Part shown: piece after piece, positions 13,606 through 18,502 of the stretch
Layout: each line of letters begins with the position of its first letter
Position numbering within the stretch: the first letter of the stretch is position 1
Source: Nocardia mangyaensis
GTDB lineage: Bacteria; Actinomycetota; Actinomycetes; Mycobacteriales; Mycobacteriaceae
Direction of reading: 5' to 3'
NCBI RefSeq assembly: GCF_001886715.1
Contig: NZ_CP018082.1
Coordinates: 4,588,001-4,652,000, forward strand
DNA length: 64,000 nucleotides
The notes under the pieces: model-generated
Database searches by the model: none
The model's input: only the letters and a program-made list of their open reading frames with translations
Told to the model about the DNA's origin: nothing
Position numbers and translations under genes: made by a program

Positions 13606-14514
13606 TCAGTGCGGTCGCTTCGAGCGGATCACCGCGGCGAGGTACTCGTAGTCGTCGGCGCGGGCCGAGGACGCGCGGTAGGCGAGGCCGATGGTGCGCC
13701 CGGGCGCGGGCGCGGCGAAGCGCGCGGTGTCGAGGGTGCCTCGGGCGGTCTCCGCAGGCACGGCCATCTCCGGAATCAATGTCACGCCGAGCCCGCCCGC
13801 CACGCACTGCACGACGGTCGTCAGTGACGCGGCGCGCGTGTCACCGACCGCGCCGGGGTGCACGTCGGCGGTCCGGCACAGATCCAGGGTCTGGTCGCGC
13901 AGGCAGTGTCCCTCGTCGAGCAGCAGCAACGGCAGATCGGCCAGCGCCGGGGCAGCCAGGTCGGTGCGACCCGCCAGCTCGTGCCCGCGCGGGGTGACCA
14001 GGACGAACTCCTCGCTGTAGAGGGGGATCTCGACCAGCCCCGGCGCCTCGGTGGGCAGGGCAAGCAGCGCGACGTCGAGCACGCCGGTGCGCAGGCCGTC
14101 GAGCAGCCGTGCGGTCTGGTCCTCGACCACCTGGGGCACCAGGCCGGGCACCTTGCGGCGCAGTTCGGGCAGCAGTTCGGGCAGCACGTACGGCGCGACG
14201 GTGGGAATGATGCCGAGGCGCAGCACGCCACCGAGGCTGTCGCCGGTGGCCGAGGCCACGAAACGGTCGGCCGCCTCGAGCGTCGCCATCGCCTGCGGCA
14301 GCAGCCGCATCCCCGCCGCGGTGACCAGCACGCGGCGGGTACTGCGCTCGATCAACTGGATCCCCAGTCCGTTTTCCAGTGATGCCAGGGCCTGCGATAG
14401 CGTGGGTTGGCTCACAGTCAAACGTGCTGCGGCGGTACCGAAATGCCGGTATTCGGCGACGGCGACGAACGCACGCAGCTGCGACAGGGTTGGCTGATAA
14501 GTCTGATCAGTCAC
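13606..14514 (-). CDS. oxyR: Peroxide-responsive LysR regulator OxyR
   Basis: A 302-residue LysR-type regulator with an N-terminal winged helix ([21 protein letters not shown]) and a LysR substrate domain. The redox pair C204 and C213 lies in the conserved [12 protein letters not shown] segment, which identifies OxyR. Peroxide would join these cysteines and change DNA binding. It is divergent from ahpC-ahpD, the classical OxyR target. Unlike in M. tuberculosis, where oxyR is broken, this copy is intact. Confidence 0.93.
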
Positions 14515-14523
14515 GCCTATCAG
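14494..14523. promoter_or_regulatory. Candidate OxyR binding region
   Basis: An AT-richer run reads CTGATAAGTCTGATCAG (14494-14510), followed by CTATCAG (14517-14523). These are three partly symmetrical copies of CTGAT/ATCAG around the oxyR start. LysR regulators often bind such repeats (T-N11-A) between divergent genes. The site overlaps the first oxyR codons. Suggestive only. Confidence 0.35.
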
Positions 14524-14625
14524 TGTACGACGAGCAATCGGCTTTACCTTTCAGTAGGCTTTCGGCAAGATCCCCCACGGGCTCATACGACGAGCGCGAT
14601 CACACCACTGAATGAGGAGATGAGC

Positions 14626-15213
14626 ATGGCTCTGCTGACCATCGGCGACCAGTTCCCGGCATACAACCTCAAGGCCGTCATCGGAGGTGACCTGTCGAAG
14701 GTCGACGCGCAGCAGCCCGACGACTACTTCACCCAGATCACCAGCGACGATCACGCGGGCAAGTGGCGCATCGTGTTCTTCTGGCCCAAGGATTTCACCT
14801 TCGTCTGCCCCACCGAGATCGCCGCGTTCGGCAAGTTGAACGAGGAGTTCGCCGACCGTGACGCGCAGGTCCTCGGCGCCTCGGTCGACAACGAGTTCGT
14901 GCACTTCCAGTGGCGCGCCCAGCACGAGGATCTCAAGACCCTCCCCTTCCCGATCCTGTCCGACCTCAAGCGTGAGCTGGCCACCGCCGCCGGTGTGCTC
15001 AACGCCGACGGCGTCGCCGATCGTGCGACCTTCATCGTCGACCCGAACAACGAGATCCAGTTCGTCTCGGTGACTGCCGGTTCGGTCGGCCGCAACGTCG
15101 ACGAGGTGCTGCGTGTGCTCGACGCCCTGCAGTCCGACGAGCTGTGCGCCTGCAACTGGAAGAAGGGCGATCCGACCATCGACGCGGGCGAACTGCTCTC
15201 GGCCAGCGTCTGA
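14626..15213 (+). CDS. ahpC: Alkyl hydroperoxide reductase AhpC (peroxiredoxin)
   Basis: A 195-residue 2-Cys peroxiredoxin that reduces peroxides and peroxynitrite. The peroxidatic cysteine is C61 in FVCPTE. Near the C-terminus CACNW supplies C174 and C176, the mycobacterial-type resolving cysteines. GAGGAG at 14614-14619 fits the ATG at 14626 better than the one at 14620. It is followed by ahpD, its reductant partner, and preceded by divergent oxyR, so peroxide induction is expected. Confidence 0.95.
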   Translation: MALLTIGDQFPAYNLKAVIGGDLSKVDAQQPDDYFTQITSDDHAGKWRIVFFWPKDFTFVCPTEIAAFGKLNEEFADRDAQVLGASVDNEFVHFQWRAQHEDLKTLPFPILSDLKRELATAAGVLNADGVADRATFIVDPNNEIQFVSVTAGSVGRNVDEVLRVLDALQSDELCACNWKKGDPTIDAGELLSASV

Positions 15214-15255
15214 TCCACCTTCCCCACCGATACACCCCAGAGGAGCCCCACTGTC

Positions 15256-15795
15256 ATGAGCATCGAGAACCTGAAGAACTCCCTTCCCGAGTACGCCAAG
15301 GACCTCAAGCTCAACCTGTCCTCGATCGCGCGCACCACCGTGCTCAGCGAGCAGCAGCTGTGGGGCACCCTGCTGGCCTCGGCCGCCGCCACCCGCTCGG
15401 CCACCACGCTGCGCGAGATCGCCGAGGAAGCCGCCGACACGCTGTCGGCGGAGGCTTACGACGCCGCGCTGGGCGCCGCCTCGATCATGGGCATGAACAA
15501 CGTGTTCTACCGCGGCAAGGCGTTCCTGGACGGCCGCTACGACGATCTGCGCGCGGGTCTGCGGATGAACATCATCGGCAACCCGGGCGTCGACAAGGCC
15601 GATTTCGAGCTGTGGTCGTTCGCGGTGTCCTCGATCAACGGCTGCGCCCACTGCCTGGAGGCGCACGAGAAGACGCTGCGCGAGGCCGGCGTCTCGCGTG
15701 AGGTGATCTTCGAGTCGCTGCGCGCGGCGGCCATCGTCGCCGGTGTCGGCCAGGCGGTGGCCTCGACCGAGGCGCTGGCCGCGGCCGCCGTCTGA
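15256..15795 (+). CDS. ahpD: Alkyl hydroperoxidase AhpD
   Basis: A 179-residue all-helical protein that passes electrons from lipoylated SucB to AhpC in mycobacteria. The active site reads [14 protein letters not shown] with C130, C133 and H137, the same numbering as M. tuberculosis AhpD. It lies 42 bases after ahpC with its own ribosome site (GAGG) and ends before a very strong terminator. The OxyR-AhpC-AhpD set is complete. Confidence 0.95.
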
Positions 15796-15922: not shown

Positions 15923-16624
15923 ATGAACGCACATGATGTGCCCGATGCCCCGGACATCCAGGTCGAGGTCGTGCGAGTGTTCACCGATCCGGCCGGCGGG
16001 CAGGGCAATGCCCTCGGCATCGCGCGGGCGGGCGACGTCGTCGCCTTGGACAAGCAGGAGCTGGCCGCGCGGCTGGGTTTCAGCGAGACCAGCGTGGTCT
16101 CGCAGCCCGTCGACGGCACGGCCGACGTGCGCATCTACACCCCCACCATCGAACTGCCCTTCGCCGGGCATCCCACCGTCGGCACGGCCTGGTGGCTGGC
16201 CGCGCAGCACCAGCCGGTGCACACCCTGCGGGTCTCGGCCGGGCCGGTGACCGTCACGCAGACCGACGGCCTCACCTGGATCACCGCCAAGGCCGAGTGG
16301 GCGCCGGATTTCGACTTCCAGCAACTGGATTCACCCGACGAGCTGACGGCGTTACGAGCCGAGGACTTCACCGAGGGCCAGCACTACTTCTGGGCCTGGA
16401 CCAACGAACCGCGCGGTGCGCTGCGCTCACGCATGTTCGCCCCCTCGATGGGCATCGCCGAGGACGAGGCCACCGGCGCGGCGGCGGTCGCGCTCACCGC
16501 GAAGCTGCGCCGCGGCCTGGTGATCACCCAGGGCGGGGGCTCGCAGCTCTACACCGAGTGGGATTCCGACGGCTGGGTCCGCCTGGGCGGCCGGGTCGCC
16601 GAGGACCACGTGGTGGTGCTCTAG
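15923..16624 (+). CDS. PhzF family isomerase-like protein
   Basis: A 233-residue member of the PhzF/diaminopimelate-epimerase fold family. Features are VRVFTDPAGGQGNALGI at the start, the catalytic-type glutamate region SETSVVSQP, the RIYTPTIELPFAGHPTVGTA block and the C-terminal DEATGAAAVAL. At 233 residues it is shorter than many PhzF proteins (about 260-300). The substrate is unknown and no phenazine genes are nearby. Its TAG stop shares four bases (CTAG) with the stop of the convergent sigma-like gene. Confidence 0.85.
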   Translation: MNAHDVPDAPDIQVEVVRVFTDPAGGQGNALGIARAGDVVALDKQELAARLGFSETSVVSQPVDGTADVRIYTPTIELPFAGHPTVGTAWWLAAQHQPVHTLRVSAGPVTVTQTDGLTWITAKAEWAPDFDFQQLDSPDELTALRAEDFTEGQHYFWAWTNEPRGALRSRMFAPSMGIAEDEATGAAAVALTAKLRRGLVITQGGGSQLYTEWDSDGWVRLGGRVAEDHVVVL

Positions 16625-17721
16625 CGTTCGCTGCCGAAGCGGCGCAGCCACGGTGGCCTGGTCGTCCAGTGACCGCGCCGCGGCGATGTATCGGCGGTCC
16701 CGAGGTCGGCCAGAATTCGTGATTCCAGCTGTCGCGGTGGCGTGTGCTGGTCGTCGGCGGCCAACCGGGCAAGAACCTCGTGGACAGTGCGCACGCGGTC
16801 GGCGAAGCGAGCCAGGCTCGGCGGGGTGAGCGTGGCGAGCTTGTTCTCGATGTGGTGGTGCTCGAGTTCGGCGACCGCGTCGAGGGCGTAGGCGTCGGCC
16901 AGCGCGAGCATCGACCCCGGCGGACTCCACGGACCGCGGGTGCCGAATCGGTCCATCCGCTGCTCGGCGAGCTGTTCGACACCCTCGGCGAGCAGCCGGT
17001 TGACCAGTGGCACACGCAGCCCCAGTTCGCGCCCGATCGTCCGGTAGGTGCGTCCGCCGTAGTAGGCGAGGACGAACACCTCACAGTGGCTGTCGAGCGG
17101 GTCGTCGAAGCCGAGGCGCGCCGAGGCCGCGAGCCACGGCACATCGTCACCGTCGTGGCGGTCCAGCCGCAGGCGCTGGACGGCGAGGCGATGGACCTGG
17201 GCGAGCAGCCAGGTCTGTTCGGGGTCGAACGGGGCGCCGGTGTCAGCGGGCGGCGTGGGAGTCTCGGTGTAGGTGACGCCGGTGCCGAAGGCGATGTCGA
17301 CGGCAGGCGTGGTCTCCTCGGTCGCGGGTCCGACATCGGTGTCCGACCGTGGTTCGGCGGCGACGTAGGCCGAACGGCCCCACGGTGTCCCGAGGTCGGG
17401 GGCCGGGACCCGTTCGCGCTCGGCGGGTCCGGGTTCGGTGTCGGGGGAATCGACGGCGTCGGAATCGGATTCGGCCTGGGCGGTGTCGTCGCCGACGATC
17501 CAGGGCGCGGCGCGCAGGCGGCGATATCCCTCGCGGACAACGTCTTCGGCCGCTCCGCGACGATGCAGCACCCGCAGGGCCAGCCCGAACGCGGCAGCTC
17601 CGGTGGCCTGGTAGAGCGCACGGAGCGCGTCGTGATCGTCGGCGCCCGCGGAGATCTCGGGGGTGGGCGCGCCGAGGCCGCGGACCCCCGGCACCGGCTC
17701 GGGACCACGCTGCCCGTTCAT
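16621..17721 (-). CDS. Degenerate SigK-like sigma factor fused to an RskA-like anti-sigma domain
   Basis: Unusual 366-residue protein. Residues 30-72 look like the first part of sigma-70 region 2 (ALYQATGAAAFGLALRVL...AAEDVV). Residues 166-185 (FDPEQTWLLAQVHRLAVQRL) match the later part of region 2 in SigK-type factors (FDP...SWLM..AHRRAVDRVR). Between them is an acidic, Pro-rich insertion of about 90 residues. Residues 206-255 are region 4 (FVLAYYGGRTYRTIGRELGL). Residues 270-340 resemble the N-terminal domain of the RskA anti-sigma (LALADAYALDAV...PPRQLESRILADL). The chain ends where RskA would enter its membrane helix. This is my reading by eye. It could be an inactive sigma remnant or a self-inhibited regulator. 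Confidence 0.6.
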   Translation of the reverse strand: MNGQRGPEPVPGVRGLGAPTPEISAGADDHDALRALYQATGAAAFGLALRVLHRRGAAEDVVREGYRRLRAAPWIVGDDTAQAESDSDAVDSPDTEPGPAERERVPAPDLGTPWGRSAYVAAEPRSDTDVGPATEETTPAVDIAFGTGVTYTETPTPPADTGAPFDPEQTWLLAQVHRLAVQRLRLDRHDGDDVPWLAASARLGFDDPLDSHCEVFVLAYYGGRTYRTIGRELGLRVPLVNRLLAEGVEQLAEQRMDRFGTRGPWSPPGSMLALADAYALDAVAELEHHHIENKLATLTPPSLARFADRVRTVHEVLARLAADDQHTPPRQLESRILADLGTADTSPRRGHWTTRPPWLRRFGSER

Positions 17722-17779: not shown

Positions 17780-18364
17780 TCACCGGCCGATCGCGGCGAT
17801 CAGCATGAACGCCGTGCCGATATCCATCACCACATGGGGTACCAGCGCCGAGGTCAGTGGGTGCGCGCCGACCGGGTGCACGAACCGGTGCCAGCGCGGT
17901 CCGTGACCGACGGTACCGAGTACGAGCAGCGCGTCCGCCCCGAACAGCAGCGCGAGTACCAGCGTGGGGACCGGCGCCGGTCCGGCGTGCTCGGCGCCGT
18001 GTCCGGCCATCGCGTACAGCATCGCGGCCACGGCCACGGTGTGATAGCCGATGGCGAACACCGCGCCCGGGTCGACCGCGCCGCGACGCCACTGCGCCGC
18101 GCGTTCGGCCAGCAGGATCGCGAAGGCCACGACGAGGGCGGTGAGCACGCCCCGCGCGGCGTGTGGATCGGTGGCGGCGGGGAACACCAGCATCGCCAGC
18201 ATCACCAGGCACATGAGCAGATGCGCGCTGTCGGCCCCGGCGTCGGCGCGGTGTGGCGGTGGGCTCGGCCGGGCCAGCCGGACCACCACGATCAGCGCGG
18301 CCAGGATGAACGCGGCGACCACCGACCAGCGCACGAACGCATGGTGCTCAACGAATTCGACCAC
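17780..18364 (-). CDS. DUF5134 family membrane protein
   Basis: A 194-residue integral membrane protein with about six hydrophobic segments, Ala/Val/Leu rich. Several histidines lie near segment ends (YHTVAVAAMLYAM, HGAEH, VPHVVMD), the pattern of the actinobacterial DUF5134 family. These histidines suggest metal or haem binding, but nothing is established. GTG 18364 follows GGTGGGG and is the likely start. It lies 58 bases upstream of the sigma/anti-sigma fusion gene on the same strand and may share its promoter. Confidence 0.75.
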   Translation of the reverse strand: MVEFVEHHAFVRWSVVAAFILAALIVVVRLARPSPPPHRADAGADSAHLLMCLVMLAMLVFPAATDPHAARGVLTALVVAFAILLAERAAQWRRGAVDPGAVFAIGYHTVAVAAMLYAMAGHGAEHAGPAPVPTLVLALLFGADALLVLGTVGHGPRWHRFVHPVGAHPLTSALVPHVVMDIGTAFMLIAAIGR

Positions 18365-18502
18365 ACCCCACCGCCTTCGAGTCGCCACCCGCCCACCATG
18401 CTCGCACCCGGCACGGTCGAACCGGGCGATTTTCCGGCCCGAAGCGGAGCCGAGCACCGGGCCGACGCGACCCGGGCGCGCACCGGGCGTCAAAATCGAC
18501 AG

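Follow-up and report, generated by a model that had tools for sequence, protein, structure and literature searches.

A soluble fusion of a SigK-like sigma factor with its RskA-type anti-sigma domain at a conserved locus of Nocardia

Introduction

What becomes of a sigma factor that is joined in one soluble chain to the domain that would normally inhibit it? The question is raised by a gene of Nocardia mangyaensis in a stretch of 64,000 nucleotides (C1:4588001-4652000 of a 7.31-Mb single-contig genome; hereafter the window), where 16621-17721 on the minus strand form a single intact open frame of 366 aa, running from ATG to TAG. The original prediction, made from the letters of the window, took the product (P0001, the window protein) for a SigK-type sigma factor cut by an acidic insertion and fused to the N-terminal domain of RskA, and proposed a self-locked regulator, a decoy for core polymerase or for SigK, or a decayed locus. 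After the comparison described here, the self-locked regulator and the decoy of the SigK system stay the leading readings. The best reading, with a probability of about 0.5, is that the protein is a closed module of sigma mimic and anti-sigma which does not transcribe and acts on the resident SigK/RskA.

Domain Architecture of the Fused Protein

The window protein combines sigma and anti-sigma domains in a single chain. RskA_N (PF22618) was matched by Pfam at residues 271-317 with an E value of 2.8e-14, exceeding the cut-off, which agrees with the RskA inhibitory domain foreseen at 270-340. Sigma70_r4_2 was matched below the cut-off at 213-250 (E 8e-4) and Sigma70_r2 at 35-68 for profile positions 1-34 of 71 only (E 0.05), the latter scoring 13.8 bits against the 24 needed, and the window protein, having no uninterrupted region 2 that passes the Pfam cut-off, lies outside the 31 Sigma70_r2 matches of its genome. 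Its top NCBIfam match was SigK (PRK09646, E 1.9e-9), at 37.5 bits where the cut-off is 226. Comparison of the profile of 21 fused proteins with that of 23 SigK proteins gave a probability of 99.5 and an E value of 7e-23 with both sigma halves covered; sigma2 and sigma4 are thus homologous to SigK, and region 2 does fall into two SigK-type halves, sigma2 at 29-72 and helix 2.4 at 167-187. Region 4, expected at 206-255, is present, with a start nearer residue 198 in the models (about 198-255).

In total, 7997 candidates were scored in a protein search, resulting in 52 matches, of which 50 bear RskA_N (250-519 aa) and two are plain SigK; a profile search recovered the same 50 proteins. RskA_N was present in 51 of 53 scanned rows, the two without it being the plain SigK proteins, and the N-terminally incomplete P0051 was left out of all counts of 50. 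Wherever the records name an organism, all 50 relatives are from Nocardia, the closest named one (90%) belonging to Nocardia sp. NPDC058176.

The predicted single acidic insertion of about 90 residues proved to be two variable segments (about 74-107 and 122-166 in the window protein) flanking an island at 108-121, which seems to correspond to '..SPIG' of SigK. The total length of the segments ranges from 55 to 256 aa among the fused proteins and their net charge from 0 to -28, being -5 or lower in 43 of the 50, so that acidity is usual but not universal. The idea that the insert is a universal DNA mimic was rejected, since eight relatives (P0040, P0041, P0043-P0046, P0049 and P0050) have a net charge of just 0 to -6.

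As foreseen, the chain ends where the membrane helix of RskA would begin. None of the 50 fused proteins has a membrane segment, the top 19-residue Kyte-Doolittle mean being 1.40, in contrast to the phzF-linked RskA proteins, 25/25 of which exceed 1.6. Pfam gives nothing past RskA_N that would represent the periplasmic C-terminal domain of RskA, the chain stopping ~50 residues later, and no receiver domain of the PhyR type was matched by Pfam in the fused proteins. The tail at 345-366 was matched by eye to the RskA stretch directly preceding the membrane helix; its PPWLRRFG motif resembles a former juxtamembrane stretch retained despite the loss of the helix.

Searched against solved structures, the window protein gave RskA (E 6.6e-6) and SigK (E 7e-4) as top matches, both from PDB 4NQW, with two others weak. 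The AlphaFold model of the window protein is weak, and the fold search started from it probed mainly sigma4. The model of the short relative P0046 is good and places sigma2 and sigma4 like those of RskA-bound SigK; the RskA fold is also predicted for the fused protein. Region 4.1 (about 192-213) is a gap in the MAFFT alignment versus a helix in the models, which makes its alignment, and therefore the fate of the first cysteine of SigK, doubtful.

Divergence of the Sigma Half

Positions conserved in at least 85% of 41 SigK proteins were scored in the 50 fused proteins. Overall, 32 were kept, 30 lost and two mixed, with region 2.1 (8 kept, 4 lost, 1 mixed) and the LAYYGGRTY block (9 kept, 4 lost) better preserved than region 2.2 (4 kept, 6 lost), region 2.4 (8 kept, 6 lost) or the recognition helix and beyond (3 kept, 10 lost, 1 mixed). 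The region-2.2 Gln, which belongs to the core-binding consensus DxxDxxQE as described in PMC13147305, is Arg in all 50 fused proteins and in N. panacis. The same position is Gln in 42 of 43 aligned SigK proteins and Lys in one (the 43 include the diverged rows L136, with Lys, and L139, with Gln, both outside the 41), and Gln in 31/31 Sigma70_r2 matches of the genome. A Gln-to-Arg change is reportedly also that of a sigma32 region 2.2 mutant (Joo, 1997). Trp is changed to Arg in 47/50 and the N-terminal leucines 18, 21 and 22 appear to be lost. Region 2.2 retains its acidic E59, D60 and E64. None of the 50 retains any of the basic residues K241, R243 and R245 (fused numbering) of the -35 helix, the commonest substitutes being Thr (45), Leu (49) and Ala (47), respectively; the window protein has Asn241.

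Other residues became fixed: the compared SigK proteins show no counterpart of R242, W196, ARLGF and C213, nor of the conserved tail. The SigK cysteine after 'RLxx' is absent in 49/50, and C213 (window 17083-17085), a different cysteine, is present in 49/50. In 32/50 (for example P0005 and P0021), C213 is accompanied by a linker cysteine, making two between helix 2.4 and RskA_N, placed unlike the pair of SigK; these relatives may therefore have a new redox site. The window protein has C213 only.

Anti-sigma contacts listed in Table 2 of PMC7406223, as mapped by us onto the fused protein, are kept at RpoE 26, 35, 47, 54 and 149-151 and changed at 22, 23, 51 and 58; those at 27 and 31 vary within SigK itself, and 131 and 135 are unsure. 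The hydrophobic pair of SigK L177 and RskA L18 corresponds to I/V248 and L280 of the fused protein. Judged from these alignments, sigma function appears to have decayed inside a gene that is retained, and the changes suggest that the protein became a new kind of regulator. Together with the P0046 model, they suggest a sigma-like domain that binds an anti-sigma domain instead of polymerase.

Selection and Distribution

The folded parts of the fused gene are under purifying selection, and the gene is therefore no relic. Pairwise dN/dS by the Nei-Gojobori method in eight pairs, some with a sequence in common, was 0-0.22 for residues 29-72, 0-0.22 for the island, 0-0.15 for residues 168-256 and 0.05-0.23 for RskA_N; the tail gave 0.08-0.39 with one pair undefined, and the two inserts, poorly aligned there, 0.17-1.85. 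The coding sequence of N. camponoti (L023), which has no start, was excluded from the pairs.

The comparative search found the same architecture in 17 of 150 Nocardia genomes, as a single frame in 16 and divided between two contig ends in one; in G033, G043 and G065, the flagged stop is the gene's own end. The fused genes sit at one conserved locus: in 14 fused loci with named records, the fused gene is flanked by DUF5134 and, opposite it, by phzF - ahpD - ahpC - oxyR, with each of the two flanks present in 13/14 and the missing one lost at a contig end.

Origin of the Fusion

Of 148 Nocardia genomes, 129 gave a phzF match (E up to 1e-60). Forty phzF-adjacent regions were then inspected, a non-random set of 20 with an RskA-like match nearby and 20 hand-picked from the upper phzF list. 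An ordinary sigK with a full-length membrane rskA occupies the space between DUF5134 and phzF in 24/40, and 15/40 bear neither the fusion nor the ordinary pair within the fetched stretch.

Two species carry intermediate forms at the fusion locus. In N. panacis (L030:4439-5285), two genes overlapping by 8 bases encode a degenerate 183-aa sigma, with 'TREVY' in region 2.2, and a 100-aa RskA without a membrane helix, an arrangement that is likely an evolutionary intermediate. In G018 (L112:1093-2104 / L145; 1/40 regions), a full-length membrane rskA stands beside a broken sigma without region 4, the anti-sigma being apparently retained without its partner. In a 64-row tree, 19 fused proteins form one group (100/100), and, the tree being unrooted, the fused proteins, N. 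panacis and G018, the last entering through RskA columns only, split from all others (98/91); the phzF-linked pairs are weakly supported as a group (74/77).

From the locus survey and the tree, it is most likely that the fusion replaced an ordinary sigK-rskA pair in place. We infer that loss of the membrane anchor and of the region-2.2 Gln probably preceded the fusion event or roughly coincided with it. One locus offers a natural series from an ordinary pair, through a degenerate sigma with a soluble anti-sigma, to a fused protein under selection, which makes it testable how a signalling pair loses its output yet persists.

Two further loci were noted. In G067, a phzF-linked sigK beside a membrane RskA (L136) has Lys for the region-2.2 Gln and may be another sigma that is losing polymerase binding. 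In Nocardia puris (L033:4677-5626), SigK is followed by a short RskA_N-like stretch in which a membrane helix is not evident; no phzF match was seen at this locus, and an independent loss of the anchor is possible.

Proposed Mechanism and Known Systems

The closed module would derive from a sigK-rskA operon, encoding an ECF19-type sigma and a class I anti-sigma, rebuilt into one soluble protein that presumably no longer directs transcription. RskA_N is modelled as folding back onto its own sigma2 and sigma4 as in the SigK-RskA complex, and in this closed state each half would mask the other. Opening may proceed via the long flexible stretches that interrupt sigma2, after which the RskA_N half could capture resident SigK, or the sigma-like half soak up resident RskA, and the SigK regulon would be tuned from the cytoplasm. 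A more novel version, a one-chain partner switch in which a non-transcribing sigma is kept as the built-in antagonist of its own anti-sigma and acts on the paralogous SigK/RskA, is put forward tentatively, the odds being somewhat against it. If true, a former membrane signalling pair would have become a cytoplasmic switch, and an actinobacterium would have evolved sigma mimicry by fusing a cognate pair, while intermediates survived at the same locus. Sigma mimicry has been described in Alphaproteobacteria, and the locus series makes it testable whether Nocardia evolved it independently.

Candidate resident partners are present. The search for a complete sigK-rskA pair elsewhere, suggested with the original prediction, uncovered an intact fasciclin-sigK-rskA locus from C1:5830973, and another SigK, accompanied by a soluble RskA_N of 83 aa, lies beside a cpn60 gene (L011:1405-2275; G000 C1 near 975000). 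The latter resembles a soluble, truncated Nocardia RskA of 81 aa, which, paired with a cysteine-less SigK, was reported in PMC7509140 to inhibit SigK. A scan for SigK-type promoters yielded no clear site beside the fused gene, but it yielded none at the genome's own fasciclin-sigK-rskA locus either.

The fused protein shares the folds and the predicted sigma2/sigma4 placing with SigK-RskA (ECF19, class I anti-sigma; PDB 4NQW) and the chromosomal place with the phzF-linked sigK-rskA pairs of other Nocardia. SigK and RskA are separate proteins, the latter membrane-embedded, whereas the fusion is one soluble chain with sigma2 interrupted, residues of the polymerase- and promoter-contacting type changed and the 'RLxx' cysteine missing in 49/50. 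The truncated Nocardia RskA likewise has an anti-sigma domain without an anchor, but consists with its SigK of separate proteins, with an active sigma (PMC7509140), and the similar pair of the present genome lies at a different locus. Sigma and anti-sigma on one chain are known from IutY (ECF243), ECF48, ECF52, ECF53 and ECF36; as described in PMC8999054, these carry membrane helices, in contrast to the soluble Nocardia chain with its RskA-type domain and altered sigma. PhyR also pairs a sigma-like domain with an anti-sigma without acting as a sigma, but in the same description has a receiver and a separate anti-sigma, NepR, whereas the fusion has no receiver and its anti-sigma on the same chain. 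A literature search over titles and abstract starts, in which few subscription papers were covered, named no SigK-RskA fusion; as far as searched, what is new is the soluble fusion of RskA type, the sigma that is both split and altered, and the evolutionary series found in place.

Alternative Explanations

The strongest rival, though an unlikely one, is a working sigma factor that is self-inhibited, its RskA_N tail blocking it until proteolysis, a ligand or phosphorylation intervenes, as for IutY or as proposed for ECF52; its promoter specificity would have changed. The architecture resembles that of the known fusions (PMC8999054), the sigma2 helices, the 2.4 helix and sigma4 are retained and strongly conserved, and so are the acidic residues of region 2.2. 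The substitutions of Gln and Trp, the apparent loss of the leucines and the absence of the recognition-helix basic residues speak against it, as does the disappearance of the membrane anchor and periplasmic sensor for intramembrane proteolysis. It keeps some weight because ECF43 sigmas with an altered region 2.2 can be rescued, being activatable by phosphorylation according to PMC13147305 and PMC8999054.

It is doubtful that the protein left the sigma network altogether to become a DNA-binding or scaffold protein, its helix-turn-helix and RskA_N helices being structural, perhaps together with DUF5134 at the membrane. The fixed residues and tail without SigK counterpart would fit, as would the conserved DUF5134 neighbour, but the predicted RskA fold and SigK-RskA-like arrangement do not, and DUF5134 is common at the locus without the fusion.

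A pseudogene decaying after sigK-rskA loss, which the apparent loss of sigma function, the widely variable length and the broken sigma of G018 might recall, was rejected on dN/dS as very improbable, given also the 50 relatives, the conserved synteny, one frame in 16/17 genomes and fixed substitutions common to the members. Equally improbable is a core-polymerase decoy whose sigma half titrates RNA polymerase, rejected because the region-2.2 Gln is lost in 50/50 and the Trp in nearly all, in spite of the sigma2 fold kept in the P0046 model.

Features and Neighbouring Genes

Table 1. Coordinates of the fused gene, its segments and flanking genes in the window
Feature	Position	Strand	Evidence or remark
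Fused sigK-like / RskA_N gene, 366 aa	16621..17721	-	Frame, Pfam, relatives
Residues 29-72, sigma regions 2.1-2.2	17506..17637	-	2.2 Gln changed to Arg63
Residues 74-107, first variable segment	17401..17502	-	Acidic, low-confidence (disordered)
Residues 108-121, conserved island PDLGTPWGRSAYVA	17359..17400	-	Probably 2.3 loop (SigK 'SPIG'); TPWGR in 49/50
Residues 122-166, second variable segment	17224..17358	-	Chief cause of length differences
Residues 167-187, sigma 2.4 helix	17161..17223	-	
Residues 193-256, sigma4	16954..17145	-	Invariant LAYYGGRTY; altered -35 recognition helix; 193-213 doubtfully aligned
Residues 268-344, RskA N-terminal anti-sigma domain	16690..16920	-	
Residues 345-366, conserved tail PPWLRRFG	16624..16689	-	PPWLxR in 49/50
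DUF5134 gene	17780..18493	-	E 8.9e-18; 58 bp upstream, same strand as fusion
phzF-like gene (PF02567)	15923..16624	+	Convergent; locus marker

The adjacent gene does encode DUF5134, as had been proposed. Its functional tie to the fusion is possible: orientation, distance and its presence beside 13/14 fused loci and 24/24 ordinary pairs are in favour, but it was also kept in 13 of 15 fetched regions having neither form. On the other side, the fused gene and the phzF-like gene have a common CTAG stop palindrome.

Record names for the family vary among 'RNA polymerase sigma factor', 'RskA family anti-sigma factor' and 'hypothetical protein', and on present evidence neither a sigma-factor nor an anti-sigma name alone is likely right. 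Window 13606-15795, with only phzF between it and the fusion, holds peroxide-defence genes for a LysR-type (oxyR-like) regulator, AhpC and an AhpD-like protein; a redox link of the fusion to these neighbours, shared by 13/14 fused loci, is possible.
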